Source: a virus. Taken from it: DNA of 21,397 nt. The notes beneath the pieces are model-generated. The model ran no database searches. It was not told where the DNA came from and was given only the letters and a program-made list of their open reading frames with translations. Of this stretch, positions 4,488-14,711 are shown piece by piece. The stretch lies in the IMG/VR virus record IMGVR_UViG_3300006846_000064, positions 1 to 21,397 of that record. The stretch is one strand, 5' to 3'. Position 1 is the first letter of the stretch. Each line of letters begins with the position of its first letter. Position numbers and translations under genes: made by a program.

Positions 4488-5105
4488 ATGGCTAACACCT
4501 TCGCTCCCTTTGGACTGACGCCTTACGGGCACCGTGATGGCTCTGCCCCAACGATGGGCATGTCCAAGTTCACGATGGATTCGAGTTACGCAACGAACGT
4601 CTTTACCGGCGATCTGGTTGCGTTCTCATCCGCTGTTCCCAACAGGATCGTTCAGTATAGCTCTGTTGCTGTTGAACCTCCGCTTGGGGTCTTTCAGGGC
4701 TGTTCATTCTATCACCCGACCGTCAATCGCGTGGTCTGGTCAGCCTACTTCCCGGCTTCGGTTGGTTCATCCAGCCCGGTGACGGCCTACGTCATCGACG
4801 ATCCCGAAATGACGTTCCTTGTTCAGGCATCCACCACCGCTGTCGTCGGGTCGAGCAATACGGGTTATTTGTTCGGTGCCCATACGACTGGCTCTGGCAA
4901 CACGACGACTGGCCGATCAGGAACATACGTTGATGCCACCGTCACCAGTCTGTCGTCGGGGTTCCTGCGCATCTGGGGTGCCTATGCTGGCTCTGCACCG
5001 CCCGGTGCTAACGGCACCGACACGACTGTCGCTGGTCAGATTATGATTGTGCAGCCCAATGGATGGGTCCGCAATACGGTCACAGTGACCGGCATCACGA
5101 GCTAA
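4488..5105 (+). CDS. Capsid-associated / decoration-type protein (205 aa)
   Basis: The protein begins MANTFAPFGLTPYGHRDGS, a start pattern (APFGL-x-P-x-x-H-x-DGS) I recall from structural proteins encoded immediately before the major capsid protein in several podovirus-like groups. It is rich in Ser, Thr, Gly and Val with short beta-prone strands, and includes DDPEMTFLVQAS (about residues 104-115) and a C-terminal QIMIVQPNGWV. No coiled coil, signal or membrane segment is seen. Placement between the structured leader and the coat gene suggests an abundant virion protein, such as a head decoration or stabilising protein. The specific role is inferred. Confidence 0.65.
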   Translation: MANTFAPFGLTPYGHRDGSAPTMGMSKFTMDSSYATNVFTGDLVAFSSAVPNRIVQYSSVAVEPPLGVFQGCSFYHPTVNRVVWSAYFPASVGSSSPVTAYVIDDPEMTFLVQASTTAVVGSSNTGYLFGAHTTGSGNTTTGRSGTYVDATVTSLSSGFLRIWGAYAGSAPPGANGTDTTVAGQIMIVQPNGWVRNTVTVTGITS

Positions 5106-5117
5106 GGGAGCATATAA

Positions 5118-6032
5118 ATGCCCGTCGCACTCGCCCAAATTCGCGACTTGCTGCTCCCCGGCCTGTGGGGAATTTCTGGCAAGTATCCAATGATCGAGCG
5201 GCAATGGCCGAAGCTGTTCCGCAAGACTTCCTCGAACATGGCTTTGGAGCGTCGTGCTGCGGTTCGCTTCCTTGGCCTTGCTCAGTTGAAGCAGGAAGGC
5301 GGCCCCACCTCGTTCGACAATGCGGCGGGCCAGCGGGCCGTCTACAACGCCGAGCACTTCGAGATCGGGCTGGGGTACGCAATCACCCGTAAGGCGATTG
5401 ACGATAACCTCTATAAGTCCGAGTTCGGGCCGAGCAATGATGGCCTCATGGAATCCTTCAAGGAGACCGAGGAAATCTATTCGGCCAACGTGTTCAATAC
5501 CGGCGATGTGTATAACGCCGCCATTGGTGGTGATGGTGTTTCGCTGTTCAGTACAGCCCACCCCATTGACAACGCCACCATCTCCAATGTGGCATCGCCT
5601 GCCGTGGGCCTCAATGAGACTTCTCTGCTCAATGCTCTGGTCGCGATCAGGACCGGATGGCGCAACGAGGCTGGTCTCAAAATCTATGCTCGCGGCAAGA
5701 AACTCGTCGTACCACCGGCTCTGGAGCCAGTGGCGCTGCGCCTGTTCCGGTCGGAACTACGGCCCGGCACGGCCACCAACGATGTGAATGCGATCCTTGG
5801 GATGAACGAATCACTCAAGGAAGGCTTCATGACCTACGACTACCTGACGAGTTCATTTGCGTGGTTCGTCACCACCAATCAGGATGGTCTGATCTTCTTC
5901 GACCGAAAGCCTTATGAGACCGACATGTCGGTGGAGTTCACCACTGACAACCTACTCGTGAAGGGCTACCAACGTTACGTGCCGACCTACTATGATTGGC
6001 GGGCGGCATGGGGAAGCTTCTCGACCAGCTAG
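5118..6032 (+). CDS. Major capsid protein, HK97-fold type (304 aa)
   Basis: A strong AGGGAG site lies ahead of the ATG. The length (304) fits a compact coat protein. The central and C-terminal stretches match the HK97-fold coat families I know: FKETEEIYSANVFN, then FSTAHPI, then SLLNALVAIRTGW with KIYARGKKLVVPPALEP (about residues 190-210), then LRPGTATNDVNAI and a late strand motif GLIFFDRKP. The 'LVVPP-LE-A-L...S' and 'G..ND.N' pattern is typical of coat proteins related to Mu gpT-like heads. It assembles into the icosahedral shell around the scaffold. No long N-terminal delta domain or protease gene is visible, so maturation without proteolysis is possible. Confidence 0.85.
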   Translation: MPVALAQIRDLLLPGLWGISGKYPMIERQWPKLFRKTSSNMALERRAAVRFLGLAQLKQEGGPTSFDNAAGQRAVYNAEHFEIGLGYAITRKAIDDNLYKSEFGPSNDGLMESFKETEEIYSANVFNTGDVYNAAIGGDGVSLFSTAHPIDNATISNVASPAVGLNETSLLNALVAIRTGWRNEAGLKIYARGKKLVVPPALEPVALRLFRSELRPGTATNDVNAILGMNESLKEGFMTYDYLTSSFAWFVTTNQDGLIFFDRKPYETDMSVEFTTDNLLVKGYQRYVPTYYDWRAAWGSFSTS

Positions 6033-9225: not shown

Positions 9226-10716
9226 GTGGCAACTCTCTTTTTCAACAGGGTCATGTTTCGGGCCGCCTCTGGTGGGGTTGGTGACTTTGTTGTTTCCGCA
9301 GCGATCACTGGCTATCGCACCCCCCTCGATGCCAGTATTCCAGATACTACGATTGTCAGCTACACCGCTGAAAGTGACGACAAGACTGAGTGGGAAACCG
9401 GGCTTGGTACTTATGCCACCGGCACGGTCACGCTAGATCGCACCACCGTCTACGAAAGCAGCAACGCCAACGCTCTGGTCAACTTCAGCGCCGCACCCAA
9501 GGTGTGGGTGGACTGGTTTGCTCAGAACGTCGCGGGCGACAGCCTATCAACAGAAGTCTTGTTCAATGCTGGCGGTACTCCGGCCACGGTGGCTGGTGAC
9601 GCAACGTTCTTTTTCAATAGCACCACTAACCTGCTCAGGGGTGGCGATAGACTTTTTGTCAATAACAGCACCGATCCAACGGTGGATGGATTTCCGGCGA
9701 CGGTTCAGGCAGCGTTCAATCCAAATACCGATTGGGGGGCTCTGTTTTATGGCTTCGGAGCTAACACGTCAGGAGTCTCAAATGTTTTTGCTAAATCAAG
9801 AGGCGTGAACGCTGCCACCCCTGCTGATGTAGTGACGAACGATAATCTTGCTGCCATCTATTTTTATGGATTTAAGAACACACTCTATCGTTTTGGTGGA
9901 AACCTTGAAGTAAAAGCATACAGTGTTGCTGGAAATGTTGTTGCTTCAGAGTTTAGGATTGGTCTTACTGATACAGGGAACAACAGCAGGGTCACAGGAT
10001 ATTTTTATCCTGAGATAGGCTCAGGGGCATTGGGAGTTGGCGCAAATAACTCTAATCCACCCTCGCGGACCTTCAATCCGATCTATTGGCTGGCCAACAC
10101 AAATACCGTAGAACCAGTCATCCGTCTTGGGCAGTGGACGACTGGAACGCCAGCCGCTGGTTTGGGTGTTGCTATCGAGTTTGAGGTCCAGACCGCAGCC
10201 GGTGGGCCGGGAAATCGGGAGGTTGGGGTCAGGCTCGATGCCGTTACCACCAATGTTGGGGCCGGTACTGAAGCCTTCGATTATGTCATGAGCACCATGG
10301 TCGCTGGCGTTCTGGGTGAAGCTGCAAGATTTACATCGAACAAACGCCTTCAGTTCATCAACACCTCCAATACGGATGGCCGGGACGAGAATCTTGTTAC
10401 GTTGACTGATGGCGCTACTGTTCCTTTGGATGCTTCTTTGGGGCGAACTTTCAAGCTGGTGAGCACCACCAATCCAACGATCCTAACGCCAACCAATCCT
10501 CCTGCGGCAGGCATTGCTCAGAAACTTGTTATTATCTTTGAGGCATCGGGAGCCAATCGCACGCTCGCCCTTACAACAGGTGCGGGGGCTTTTCGCTTCG
10601 GAACCGATATTACAGGATTGACGGTCACGTTATCAGGGACTGCCGACTACATCGGCTCGATCTGGAATCAAGCTGATAATAGTTGGGATGTGGTCAGTTA
10701 CGTTAAAGGATTTTAG
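9226..10716 (+). CDS. Tail-fibre-like receptor-binding protein (496 aa)
   Basis: Translation starts at GTG 9226, with GAGG at 9213-9216. The first 110 residues match a widespread phage fibre anchor pattern: NRVMFRAASGGVGDF, then a strand pattern with VSYTAESDDKTEWETGLG, TLDRTTVYESSNANALVNFS. The middle is a beta-rich Gly/Asn/Ser shaft, and the C-terminal 100 residues (from VTLTDGATVPLDASLGRTFK) resemble a recurring fibre C-terminal domain, ending SWDVVSYVKGF. Such proteins bind the host surface and may carry a polysaccharide-binding site; no depolymerase residues are evident. Base composition changes inside the gene: bases 9421-9480 are 63% GC, while 9841-9960 are about 36%, suggesting a swapped central segment. 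The final seven codons are duplicated at the end of the next gene. Confidence 0.75.
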   Translation: MATLFFNRVMFRAASGGVGDFVVSAAITGYRTPLDASIPDTTIVSYTAESDDKTEWETGLGTYATGTVTLDRTTVYESSNANALVNFSAAPKVWVDWFAQNVAGDSLSTEVLFNAGGTPATVAGDATFFFNSTTNLLRGGDRLFVNNSTDPTVDGFPATVQAAFNPNTDWGALFYGFGANTSGVSNVFAKSRGVNAATPADVVTNDNLAAIYFYGFKNTLYRFGGNLEVKAYSVAGNVVASEFRIGLTDTGNNSRVTGYFYPEIGSGALGVGANNSNPPSRTFNPIYWLANTNTVEPVIRLGQWTTGTPAAGLGVAIEFEVQTAAGGPGNREVGVRLDAVTTNVGAGTEAFDYVMSTMVAGVLGEAARFTSNKRLQFINTSNTDGRDENLVTLTDGATVPLDASLGRTFKLVSTTNPTILTPTNPPAAGIAQKLVIIFEASGANRTLALTTGAGAFRFGTDITGLTVTLSGTADYIGSIWNQADNSWDVVSYVKGF

Positions 10717-11241
10717 TCCCACATGAGATATCCAAAACTATATCTAAATAAAACGTGCGAGACGTGCGGCAACGTTTTCGAGCGCAAGCCAAAAGTGACT
10801 TATAAGCAATGGGCGACCACAAGGTTTTGTTCGCCTGCCTGCGTAAGCAAATGGAGATTCGGCAACAAGATCAAACATCCCCGATGGAAGGGCGGTCCAG
10901 TTGAGAAAGAATGCGCCATATGTAGCAAAATGTTTATCGTATCTCGCGCTCGCTCTAATACAGCGCGATTTTGTTCATATGCTTGTAAGGTTGCCGCGCA
11001 AGATAACAATGTTTCGACCGAGAATGAAAAGGTCCGTAAAAGCAATCGGTATAAAGAATGGCGCAAGGAAGTATTTCAGCGTGACGATTATATGTGCCAA
11101 ATATGTGGCGAACGCGGAGGTCATTTACATGCAGATCATATCCAGCCATTTGCTGTCTTTTATGAATCTCGATTTGATCTAGATAACGGCCGAACGCTTT
11201 GCGTGACATGCCATAAGTTAACGCCGACTTATGGAAAGCCG
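10693..11241 (+). mobile_element. HNH endonuclease cassette inserted at the 3' end of the fibre gene
   Basis: The unit runs from one copy of the codons for VSYVKGF (10693-10716, with stop) to the base before the second copy (11242-11265). Its length, 549 bases, is a multiple of three, so both copies lie in the same frame. Outside the HNH ORF there is no space for a group I intron core. The simplest reading is a homing cassette that entered just before the last seven codons and brought its own recoded version of that end. Confidence 0.6.
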
Positions 11242-11265
11242 GTGAGTTATGTGAAGGGGTTCTAA
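10723..11265 (+). CDS. HNH homing-type endonuclease with two zinc modules (180 aa)
   Basis: The C-terminal part is a classic HNH/McrA-type nuclease: EWRKEVFQRDDY, C125-x-x-C128, HADHIQPF with D138/H139, N155 (LDNGRTLC), then C160-x-x-C163-H164. The N-terminal half has two probable zinc modules, C12/C15 with C36/C40 and C64/C67 with C84/C88, likely for DNA recognition. These enzymes nick or cut DNA at a long site and drive their own spread. The last seven residues, VSYVKGF, are the same as the fibre protein end next door, so the enzyme is fused to the former fibre terminus. The ribosome site AAAGGA (10705-10710) lies in the K-G codons of the upstream fibre copy. Base composition is lower in GC than most neighbours (42% in 11041-11100). 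Confidence 0.85.
   Translation: MRYPKLYLNKTCETCGNVFERKPKVTYKQWATTRFCSPACVSKWRFGNKIKHPRWKGGPVEKECAICSKMFIVSRARSNTARFCSYACKVAAQDNNVSTENEKVRKSNRYKEWRKEVFQRDDYMCQICGERGGHLHADHIQPFAVFYESRFDLDNGRTLCVTCHKLTPTYGKPVSYVKGF
11242..11265 (+). repeat. Second copy of the fibre 3' end (VSYVKGF plus stop), recoded
   Basis: Encodes the same seven residues and stop as 10693-10716, in the same frame. Six of seven codons differ, all synonymously: GTC/GTG, TAC/TAT, GTT/GTG, AAA/AAG, GGA/GGG and TTT/TTC, while AGT is shared; the stops are TAG and TAA. The AAGGGG here is the ribosome site for the gene at 11268, so this copy is probably the original fibre end. Confidence 0.8.
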
Positions 11266-11267
11266 AG

Positions 11268-11465
11268 ATGTGTGATCCACACATCGAATCTCTTCGCGCC
11301 AACCGCATTGCTGACGCTGCTCGTATCCGGCGTCTGGAAAAATGGGTTGATACGGTTTCATCTCCACTCTGGAAGCGACTATGGTTTGTTGTGAAAGGCT
11401 ATCGCTTCCACCAACTCGGTGTCTGGTATCACGCCGAGTGGAATCGTGATGGGTGGGACTACTAA
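11268..11465 (+). CDS. Small hypothetical phage protein (65 aa)
   Basis: The AAGGGG in the preceding codons is a well-spaced ribosome site (eight bases before the ATG). The product begins MCDPHIESLRANRIADAARI, forms a charged helix, then a short hydrophobic/aromatic stretch (PLWKRLWFVVKGYRFH), and ends in a Trp/Tyr-rich NRDGWDY tail. The aromatic stretch is too short and too basic for a confident membrane helix. I do not recognise it. It was likely directly downstream of the fibre gene before the HNH cassette arrived. Confidence 0.55.
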   Translation: MCDPHIESLRANRIADAARIRRLEKWVDTVSSPLWKRLWFVVKGYRFHQLGVWYHAEWNRDGWDY

Positions 11466-14400
11466 ATGACCGATCTATACCCCTCCAATAGAACCCTCAA
11501 TGGGATTGGCAACTTTTTCGATCTTCTAAGCAATCCGCAAGGGACTGCCACTCCCGGCGAATCAATGACCGGAGTGGTCAATGCCGTATCCAGCGGCACC
11601 AACATTCAGTGGACGCAAACAGCAGGAGGAACAGTTCTAGAATTCATCTCCGGTCGATCTCCGGCGGGGGGTTGGACACTCGATGGCACCATAACTTTTG
11701 CAATGCCCGCGCAAGAAAGCCTGATGACGACCAACATCGGGATGCGCGCTCGGGTTTATCGACGCACCGATGCTGGTGTTGAAACCGAGGTCGGTGGGTC
11801 TCCATTCGATGACGGCATAGAACTGACGCAGGGCGGGTTCACCCTTATGACGTGGACCGGCAATCCGACCGCTATTGCCTTTGCCGAAGATGATCGTCTC
11901 GTCGTCCGGTACTTCATCACTAACATCGGCACGATGGGGACCGGAACTGGCACTTTGCGGTATAATGCTCTCTTAGGTGCTGGCACCGAAGCGCAGGTCA
12001 CGATCACTGAAACCGTCGCCTTCAAGTCTGATGCAACCAATTTTGGCGATATTGTCGGAACGTCAATCAAAGGTACCGCCGCGATTACGGACCCGCTCAG
12101 TCCATCGCGCCCTATCACGATTTCGGTTGGCGACTTGGTTTTTGTTGCGGTGTCGGAGAGTGGGGGCAATACCTCGGTCGCCTGTACCGACGACCTCGGC
12201 AACAGTTACACCGCGCTCAATGGCGGAACGAACGGCATCGCCAATGTAAAGGCGTTTTTCAGCGTTGCCACGACCGGCGGCGACTGCACCCCGGCGGTTG
12301 ATACGACAGCCAGCGCCAATAACTCGGCGCTTGAGGTCACGGTTTTCAAAGGACCATTTGCGTCGTCACCGCTCGATATCAATACGACTTCCGCATCCGA
12401 TAGTGCGGAACCCTATACCGCGACGGCAACCGGCACCTTGGCACAATCCGACGAATTGATCGTCGGATACTTTGGTGGTGCCGCCGCTGCCGCGCAAGAA
12501 GCCTACATCTCGGCAACGCCATCCGGTGCCTATATCGCCTGCAGCAATCCTGGGCTGATTAGTGCGGCCGTTTCCCTTTGTGTCACCAGCTTGGTCGTTG
12601 CTTCGACCAGTTCGGTGACGATGGGGGTCAGCGCCGAGCCGGGCGGTGCTCGTGCAACAGCCTGTGTGGTCGCGACATTCAAGCGCGAGCCGACACCAGC
12701 GCCGTCTGCTGATTCTTGGTTCCGACTTCTTACCGATCCGCCACCGCCGCTTCCCGGTCTTGGCGCTGCTTGGCAAAATCAGTTTGGATACGGTCACTTC
12801 ACTCCGCCCCCCGAGGAAGTCACAGTCGATAAGTGGTTTGCTGAACTTTCTGGGCCAACGCCACCGTTGCCCGGTCTGGTTGCTGCTAATCAGATTGATG
12901 TTGTCGAACTACCGTTCATTGAGACGATCTTTCCTGATATGTGGTTCATGCCATTCTCGGACCCCACGCCGAGTTTGGCTGGCTTGCTTGCTCCATATCA
13001 AGAAGAGTTTGGAATTTCATATTTTATTGTAGAAGAAGTCACTGTTGATAAATGGTTTGTTTCTCTCTCTGAGCCGCTCTACGCGCTTTCCGGTCTGGGT
13101 GCTTCCTATCAGGTTGAGTTTGGTGAAACACCAGTCGAGGATTCTGACGCTCAGGGTTGGTTCTATCCATTCTCTGAACCAACGCCGCCACTATCGGGGC
13201 TCGGTTCACACCAGCAACTGACTCTCACAGACGTTCCGTTTGTTGAGGACATCTTTCTGGATATGTGGTTTGCGGCTCTCTCGGAGCCAACACCGCCGCT
13301 GTCTGGGTTGCTGGCTCCATACCAAGCGGAGTTTGGTCCGGCAATATTTGTTGAAGAAGAGGTTACGGTCGATAAGTGGTTTGCCGCTCTCTCTGAACCG
13401 CTTTATGCCCTGCTTGGTCAAGCAGCCCCATATCAGGACGATCTGGCGGCAGTCCCATTTGAGGACTCTGATATTCAGGGCTGGTTCTATCCATTTGCAG
13501 AGCCCACTCCACCTCTGTCTGGTTTGCTGGCTCAGTATCAGGAGCAATTTGGACAGACATATACTGTTGTTGAAGAAGTCACGGTTGATAAGTGGTTTAT
13601 CGAACTCTCAACGCCAACTCCACCACTTCCGGGCTTAGATGCCAGCCAGCAGTTGGCGCTGACTGACGTTCCATTTGAGGAAGATATCTTCGTTGATATG
13701 TGGTTTGGCTATCTGTCCGAACCACCGCCTCCACTTGCTGGCCTGCTTGCTCCATATCAGGAGGAAGGTGGTTATTCACCATTCTTTGCTCCAGAAGTCT
13801 CGGTCGATATGTGGTTTGAGGCTCTATCAGAGCCGACGCCGCCTCTCTCCGGTCTGGGTGTTGCCAGTCAGATCGATGTTATAGAAATCCCATTCATCGA
13901 AGATACCTTCGTTGATATGTGGTTCGAGGCGTGGTCTGATCCGACCCCGCCATTGTCCGGGCTGTTGGCGGCCTATCAAGAAGCGTTTGGGCAAAACTAT
14001 TTCATCTTTGAAGAAATCACTGTCGATAAGTGGTTTACTGAACTCTCGACACCTACGCCTGCATTGTCCGGTCTGGGAGAGAGTCAGCAACTTGCTTTGA
14101 CGGATGTACCGTTCGAGGAAGATATCTTTGTCGATATGTGGTTCGCGCCATTTGCGGACCCAACGCTACCGCTGGCTGGGCTGTTGGCCCAATATCAGGA
14201 GGAGTTTGGCTATTCTCCACTCTTTGAGCCGACCGTCTCGGTCGATATGTGGTTTGAGACTCTTGGTGAGCCGACGCCACCGCTGTCTGGATTGGGCACT
14301 GCTAACCAAATCGATGTTATCGAGGTTCCGTTTGTCGAGAGCATCTTCGTTGATATGTGGTTCGAGGCTTATTCAGAGCCGACGCCACCATTGGCCGGGC

Positions 14401-14711
14401 TGCGGGCGCAATATCAAAGCGAGCTTGGTCAGTCCTACTTTGTTATAGAAAACATTACTGTTGATAAATGGTTCTCTGACCTATCCAAACCAACGCCGGG
14501 ATTTCCCGGCTTGGGTGCAGAGTTCCAGTCAGCCCTATCTGTCGTTCCATTTATCGAAACCATTACTGTCGATATGTGGTTCTCGGCATTCTCAACCGTG
14601 CCTCCAGCGATGGCAGGCGCGTACTATGCTGCCCAACAAGAGTTTGGCAGTTCACCGTTTGTCGCTCCCACCGGGTTCAATCGGGCGGCAAACTTCTTCC
14701 CTGTAATGTAA
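11466..14711 (+). CDS. Giant repeat protein: beta N-terminus plus 18 Trp/Pro repeats (1081 aa)
   Basis: The ATG follows the previous stop directly. Residues 1-190 are beta-rich and fibre-like. Residues 195-412 form a second beta-rich domain (SVGDLVFVAVSESGG, TDDLGNSYTALNGG, with several Cys) of a kind seen in extracellular and phage adhesins. From residue 416 to about 1068 the chain consists of 18 units of 35-39 residues, each starting (D/Q)-x-W-F, then about six residues to a P-T-P-P-L-x-G-L-x-x-x-x-Q core. The protein ends NRAANFFPVM. There is no signal peptide or membrane segment. Position between fibre genes favours a virion surface fibre or adhesin. The repeat is not one for which I know a function, and similar W-F...L-S-x-P...Q segments occur in the protein at 14925. 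Structural role is inferred, not demonstrated. Confidence 0.75.
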   Translation: MTDLYPSNRTLNGIGNFFDLLSNPQGTATPGESMTGVVNAVSSGTNIQWTQTAGGTVLEFISGRSPAGGWTLDGTITFAMPAQESLMTTNIGMRARVYRRTDAGVETEVGGSPFDDGIELTQGGFTLMTWTGNPTAIAFAEDDRLVVRYFITNIGTMGTGTGTLRYNALLGAGTEAQVTITETVAFKSDATNFGDIVGTSIKGTAAITDPLSPSRPITISVGDLVFVAVSESGGNTSVACTDDLGNSYTALNGGTNGIANVKAFFSVATTGGDCTPAVDTTASANNSALEVTVFKGPFASSPLDINTTSASDSAEPYTATATGTLAQSDELIVGYFGGAAAAAQEAYISATPSGAYIACSNPGLISAAVSLCVTSLVVASTSSVTMGVSAEPGGARATACVVATFKREPTPAPSADSWFRLLTDPPPPLPGLGAAWQNQFGYGHFTPPPEEVTVDKWFAELSGPTPPLPGLVAANQIDVVELPFIETIFPDMWFMPFSDPTPSLAGLLAPYQEEFGISYFIVEEVTVDKWFVSLSEPLYALSGLGASYQVEFGETPVEDSDAQGWFYPFSEPTPPLSGLGSHQQLTLTDVPFVEDIFLDMWFAALSEPTPPLSGLLAPYQAEFGPAIFVEEEVTVDKWFAALSEPLYALLGQAAPYQDDLAAVPFEDSDIQGWFYPFAEPTPPLSGLLAQYQEQFGQTYTVVEEVTVDKWFIELSTPTPPLPGLDASQQLALTDVPFEEDIFVDMWFGYLSEPPPPLAGLLAPYQEEGGYSPFFAPEVSVDMWFEALSEPTPPLSGLGVASQIDVIEIPFIEDTFVDMWFEAWSDPTPPLSGLLAAYQEAFGQNYFIFEEITVDKWFTELSTPTPALSGLGESQQLALTDVPFEEDIFVDMWFAPFADPTLPLAGLLAQYQEEFGYSPLFEPTVSVDMWFETLGEPTPPLSGLGTANQIDVIEVPFVESIFVDMWFEAYSEPTPPLAGLRAQYQSELGQSYFVIENITVDKWFSDLSKPTPGFPGLGAEFQSALSVVPFIETITVDMWFSAFSTVPPAMAGAYYAAQQEFGSSPFVAPTGFNRAANFFPVM
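12711..14669 (+). repeat. 18 tandem 36-37 residue coding repeats (about 110 bases each)
   Basis: Unit starts, read from the D/Q before W-F, are spaced by 39, 36, 37, 35, 36, 37, 35, 37, 36, 37, 36, 37, 36, 37, 36, 37 and 36 residues. From unit 8 onward two unit types alternate strictly: a 37-residue form usually with a Q-x-x-x-G core (YQEEFG...) and a 36-residue form with Q-x-x-x-x-x-x-x-P-F. A four-unit (146-residue, 438-base) superperiod links units 9-12 to 13-16. Units 4-5 resemble 7-8 (SEPLYAL, then QGWFYPF). DNA copies differ mostly at third codon positions. Confidence 0.85.

Follow-up and report, generated by a model that had tools for sequence, protein, structure and literature searches.

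Gene arrangement at the fibre locus

The stretch of DNA analyzed here, called the window, comprises 21,397 nt (positions 1 to 21,397 of the IMG/VR virus record IMGVR_UViG_3300006846_000064). It contains, on the plus strand, a tail-fibre-like gene (9226..10716; 496 aa), the last ~110 aa of which form a C-terminal domain that is widespread in phage fibre and tail proteins, followed by an ORF for an HNH endonuclease (10723..11265; 180 aa) and by a small gene, orf11268 (11268..11465; 65 aa), whose ATG lies 2 bases past the HNH stop codon. The HNH protein consists of an N-terminal zinc-finger-like CxxC part and a C-terminal HNH domain (PF01844, residues 125-165) that scored 32.1 bits against a curated cut-off of 21.4, and it is also matched by PHROG HNH families, down to 2.7e-25. 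Its zinc cysteines and the catalytic His, Asn and His residues are all present (CQIC...HADH...NG..LC..CH) in the alignment with its relatives. The GC3 of the HNH gene is 0.43, making it AT-richer than most phage genes, and the fibre gene is intermediate.

The fibre ORF has its own stop codon before the HNH gene, and there is no intron or intein around the latter; neither a group I intron nor any other Rfam RNA was matched in the window or in the 12 case loci described below. Recoding of TAG, by which the fibre and HNH genes would be read as one frame, was ruled out, as TAG ends 10 of the 27 window genes checked.

Homologues of orf11268 were sought in every collection tried, and none was found; its first residues, MCDPH, resemble the MCESH of the gene that follows the fibre gene of L104, but the likeness did not extend and was dropped. 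Positions 11466-14711 encode a 1081-aa protein composed of numerous imperfect WF..LSEPTPPLSGL.A.YQ-type repeats, and related repeat proteins are present in the capsid relatives L046, L021, L073 and L030. A Pfam match of the repeat protein to Med12 looks spurious.

The duplicated fibre end

The fibre ORF ends in the codons GTC AGT TAC GTT AAA GGA TTT TAG (10693-10716, plus strand) and the HNH ORF in GTG AGT TAT GTG AAG GGG TTC TAA (11242-11265, plus strand), so that both ORFs finish with seven codons for VSYVKGF and a stop, 549 bases apart. Six of these codons are not the same in the two copies, the changes being confined to third bases and all silent, and the stops are TAG and TAA, respectively. 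The identity breaks off sharply to the left of the V, where the fibre (...NSWDV) and HNH (...PTYGKP) sequences are unrelated. The initial annotation of this DNA, made without database searches, had described the shared end with its six silent codon changes and differing stops, and a direct reading of the sequence confirms that description. The annotation also held coincidence to be implausible, and this is borne out: among 154,368 pairs of same-strand ORFs within 3.5 kb of each other, drawn from the window and 200+ phage loci, the VSYVKGF pair is the sole one with more than five identical terminal residues. That the two copies lie in the same frame, which it pointed out as well, carries no weight, as the other fused cases found below are 602, 595, 556, 838 and 983 bases apart from stop to stop. 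Chance or convergence of two short C-termini could be entertained insofar as the match spans just seven residues, but that match is unique among the pairs compared, it equals the conserved end of a protein family, and longer copies recur elsewhere; this explanation is effectively refuted already, and we accord it practically no weight.

VSYVKGF is the conserved terminus of a widespread phage fibre domain, W-x-V-[VI]-[SAG]-Y-x-K-G-[FY]-stop, whose members were gathered by an IMG/VR pattern scan and a profile scan. Across 23 aligned members this end never varies at its W, V, Y, K and G, an invariance that is partly built in because the pattern scan demanded part of the ending; the upstream part of the domain is independent of the scan pattern, and there are 12 invariant columns in all. 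Pfam and PHROG models gave no match to this domain in the window protein. A member in GenBank is gp21 of Streptomyces phage Kromp (L002). Relatives of the HNH protein, for their part, usually stop soon after ...CHKxTDTxG, with unrelated tails, and do not carry a tail of the VSYVKGF type.

When two ends are drawn independently with the codon usage of this phage, a mean of 4.3 of the seven codons differ (P = 0.16 for six or more), and among natural ends of the fibre family 52% of the shared codons differ, with 3% of pairs reaching six of seven. For random changes in the window, the probability that all are silent is about 2e-5 with six changes and about 0.006 with three. Since all six coding differences are silent, both copies probably served as working fibre ends throughout the time in which they diverged.

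The surroundings of the two copies indicate which may be the older. All 40 distinct HNH-free family members (IMG/VR, L083-L205) have AAAGG or AAGGG at the K-G codons, and the next ORF starts -4 to +10 bases from the fibre stop in 38 of them; the last fibre codons thus likely serve also as the ribosome-binding site of the next gene. At the end of the HNH ORF, the junction with orf11268 reads AAGGGGTTCTAA AG ATG, with an offset of +2 that matches the family junction and equals the usual spacing between the fibre end and the next gene in HNH-free relatives, and the AAGGGG within the HNH tail is likely the ribosome-binding site of orf11268. The fibre end in use sits at +6 from the HNH start, and the AAAGGA inside it can act as a ribosome-binding site for the HNH gene. 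The HNH tail, with the normal next-gene junction of the family, therefore appears to be the original fibre end, still at its first position. Weak support comes from DNA similarity, by which the tail is, over 21 nt, nearer than the end in use to 27 of the 40 family ends and farther from eight, none of these being close relatives. Base composition was considered as a sign of cassette origin and set aside, because the two ends score too similarly in codon likelihood to be told apart.

The annotation had proposed comparing the junction in relatives with an uninterrupted fibre gene. This comparison was made with the same 40 family members lacking an HNH gene at the fibre end, none of which is a close relative of this phage, and in them the next gene comes almost directly after the conserved end. 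With the fibre gene itself, tblastn against phages detected only Kromp gp21 (44%, in the C-terminal domain), and two IMG/VR single-protein scans with the fibre protein gave no close relatives. The relatives of the major capsid protein (80 loci) have other fibres at this place; the fibre of L073 shares only its first 102 residues with that of the window and ends differently. A cassette-free close relative of this exact fibre gene was accordingly absent from the phage tblastn search, the IMG/VR scans and the 80 capsid-relative loci.

Duplicated gene ends at other HNH loci

Two profile scans yielded about 150 further HNH loci (HNH genes were identified by profile, a regular-expression finder being too strict), and 130 distinct HNH ORFs were tested by translated comparison of both flanks, with swapped flanks as the null. 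The window proved to be one member of a set. A diverged copy of the terminus of the neighboring gene was found on the far side of the HNH gene in 10 clear and four weaker cases, a count of 14 in 130 that is approximate, as candidates with lower scores were assessed by eye and by whether the match was anchored at a gene terminus. The three-frame null reached a score of 38 (one of 554), whereas five of the real cases scored 49-78; the six-frame null reached 59, through low-complexity matches. L288, L289, L321 and several low-complexity matches were judged false or doubtful. About 90% of the surveyed HNH genes show no such duplication.

The target genes, named from Pfam or, where this was weak, from sequence, are diverse. 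Clear copies of a 3' end occur at a glycosyltransferase gene (L232; WHRENIDHVLREKIFVTSNGI / WHRDNVSKLPEEKVFITSNGL), at DNA methyltransferase genes (L269, L243 and L298; e.g. TGKNAILESTGETFEEVKNERK / TGKQATHIETGKTYDELKKERE) and at another methyltransferase gene (L285; TAVERIRQELDGALL / TACDRIAHELDGALL), where the old end is not fused and follows shortly after the HNH stop; weaker ones occur at ParB-like (L242), capsid-like (L251) and portal-like (L320) genes. At 5' ends, the arrangement of L286 is the mirror image of that in the window: the HNH ORF starts with the displaced start MKIAHISGIHWRG, and the SbcD/SbcC-like gene behind it starts with MKIAHISDIHWRG. Other clear 5' cases are a methyltransferase (L136), a 5'-3' exonuclease (L296) and a DUF5131 gene on the opposite strand (L293), and a weaker one is a terminase (L278). 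In the homologous methyltransferases of L243, L269 and L298, related HNH genes stand at nearly the same codon near the 3' ends, which suggests a shared site specificity of the enzymes.

Uninterrupted homologues were found for two of these targets, all of them distant homologues and not near-identical alleles. The glycosyltransferase of L297 (MW202524), which reads ...DEKVFITANGI...IYASSPDRG..., is unbroken through the position at which that of L232 is broken, as is that of L299, and L295 has an uninterrupted SbcD-like start (58% identity) that corresponds to the empty state of the L286 target. Ordinarily, then, the targets in L232 and L286 are undivided genes in which the stretch concerned occurs once. 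No DNA-level relatives of L251, L232 or L286 were found among GenBank phages, nor were any relatives found of the capsid-like protein of L251.

Probable insertion with a substitute end

The duplication, the conservation of the end throughout the fibre family, the architecture of the junction, the recurrence at other genes and the uninterrupted homologues of two such genes are direct observations. Taken together, they make it probable that an HNH cassette entered the fibre gene near its stop codon and supplied the present end of the gene (10693..10716), while the old end was kept as the tail of the HNH protein (11242..11265). The annotation had outlined such a history, and its core, namely insertion just inside the 3' end of the fibre gene, an end brought by the cassette and conversion of the old end into the tail of the enzyme, is upheld by the family end, the junction, the recurrence and the uninterrupted homologues at the two other targets; fusion in frame, however, is not required (L285), and 5' ends are replaced as well.

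The following course of events may be envisaged. A free-standing HNH homing-endonuclease cassette would have been inserted a few codons ahead of the fibre stop, on DNA that comprised the terminus of a diverged fibre homologue and, behind it, the HNH gene. To the left of the break, repair by homology with the donor fibre gene would have copied in the donor end together with the HNH gene, and to the right the product would have been joined to the recipient's own last codons, giving fibre body, donor end, HNH gene and old end in this order. The fibre protein would thereby be kept whole without splicing, and the old end would be read as the HNH tail while still providing the ribosome-binding site of the following gene. 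The same repair logic could yield replacement of a 5' end, with fusion to the HNH frame being optional. Homing by cleavage at the fibre end, the one-sided route of repair and the greater age of the HNH tail are what we infer from the arrangement of the sequences. Homing endonucleases do spread through break repair with co-conversion of the flanks, and in the T4 system breaks are documented to be repaired on one side only, with the other side joined at microhomology (PMC2988022). The duplicated stretch in the window is just seven codons long.

The copies are also direct repeats flanking an insert, and they are short (about 7-35 codons), as would be expected if the insertion had duplicated its target, in the manner of a transposon, and the identical copies had then diverged in place. 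Yet of 126 HNH loci only two, both at conserved termini, have an identical flanking repeat above chance (20 and 17 nt, with a null of up to 17), and this near-absence means that no recent target-site duplications are seen. Moreover, a detached tail should drift, whereas the six differences in the window are all silent. The 12 pooled cases, which differ at 107 of 186 third bases versus 90 of 372 first and second bases, are only supportive here, since they were found through protein similarity, an ascertainment that favors protein-conserving divergence. Duplication of the target by the insertion is thus improbable.

The annotation had suggested that silent recoding would destroy the cutting site and reduce the recombination that could remove the cassette. 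Such selection, by which the cassette's fibre end would have been driven apart so that its own enzyme spares it and no recombination occurs with the old end, would add to the insertion model and not replace it. It is in keeping with the observation that six of seven codons lies at the upper edge of natural variation, and with the general principle that intronless homing, as practiced by the free-standing endonucleases of T4, requires a donor allele resistant to cleavage. However, ordinary divergence between unrelated fibre ends suffices: such ends differ about as much, so that a donor from a different phage explains the changes, and silent changes among identical residues are fewer elsewhere (3/12 in L286, 3/10 in L243 and 4/11 in L232). 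Special recoding is thus not needed, and we consider it rather unlikely, although selection to destroy the cut site or to block recombination is possible, and the changed end may protect the cassette.

The peptide is 100% identical in the two proteins, and one might therefore suppose that the HNH protein borrowed its tail from the fibre as a functional tag, for instance to dock the enzyme on the virion. The tails at the sister loci, however, match a methyltransferase, a glycosyltransferase or a capsid-like protein instead, the copy in L285 is unfused and other copies are at 5' ends, so that a tag is very improbable.

Comparison with known homing systems

The closest known system is that of the mobile ORFs (mORFs) of fungal mitochondria, in which C-terminal duplications accompany endonuclease ORFs in atp6 of Allomyces and in atp6, atp9, cox2 and nad3 of Glomus/Rhizophagus (PMC3630166), and near which C-terminal duplications of atp6 and cob are known in Endoconidiophora (PMC6279837). 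In both the mORFs and the window, an endonuclease ORF lies near the 3' end of a gene, the inserted C-terminus is in phase with the gene body, and a diverged native C-terminus, with largely synonymous differences, lies downstream of the ORF; the inserted end of the fungal genes is thought to come from a different donor, as is proposed here for the window. The window and its sister loci share this layout, the insert carrying a diverged terminus that reads on from the gene body and the native terminus lying beyond the endonuclease ORF. The mORFs differ in being mitochondrial, in encoding LAGLIDADG or GIY-YIG enzymes and in having longer duplicated ends, at 3' ends only according to PMC3630166 and PMC6279837, whereas the phage cases involve HNH enzymes, short ends at both 3' and 5' termini, and an old end that is often fused to the frame of the enzyme.

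Among phages, the seg and mob genes of the T-even group are likewise unspliced endonuclease genes located beside conserved genes, with break repair and co-conversion (PMC2988022). The free-standing genes of T4, however, are intergenic and often cut in the neighboring gene (PMC2988022), while the window cassette lies inside the end of its target gene and has left the old end behind; the text of that review contains no word with "duplicat". Phage reviews and surveys treat free-standing HNH genes, gene splitting and exchange boundaries (PMC2988022, PMC10448857, PMC12724721, PMC7344957). The open-access papers searched do not describe the replacement of gene ends in phages.

It is possible, and we propose it only tentatively, that the phage HNH genes of the window's family are a general class of splice-free homing cassettes that enter the 5' or 3' ends of important genes with a substitute end, forming a natural cleave-and-rescue system in which this end would preserve the function of the gene as well as withstand the enzyme. 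Selfish endonuclease genes in coding sequences have been thought to need an intron or intein in order to be harmless, or else to occupy intergenic sites. Bringing a replacement for the broken end would constitute a third way in phages, and would account for the short, otherwise puzzling repeats found in gene termini next to HNH genes. Such repeats may then provide a genome signature for the insertion (and probably cut) sites of uncharacterized HNH enzymes, homing could exchange gene termini between phages, as for fibre, capsid, methyltransferase and terminase genes, and engineered cleave-and-rescue gene drives would have a counterpart in nature.

The mobE gene of Aeromonas phage Aeh1, as far as it is mentioned in PMC7344957, resembles the window in being an HNH gene within a phage coding sequence without splicing, but it splits nrdA into two working polypeptides, whereas in the window the fibre end is replaced and the gene is whole. 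L232, with a split glycosyltransferase and a duplicated junction, is nearer to Aeh1 mobE. A second HNH gene (5080-5646) is located just downstream in the same region of L232, and L277 carries three HNH ORFs within about 2.5 kb.
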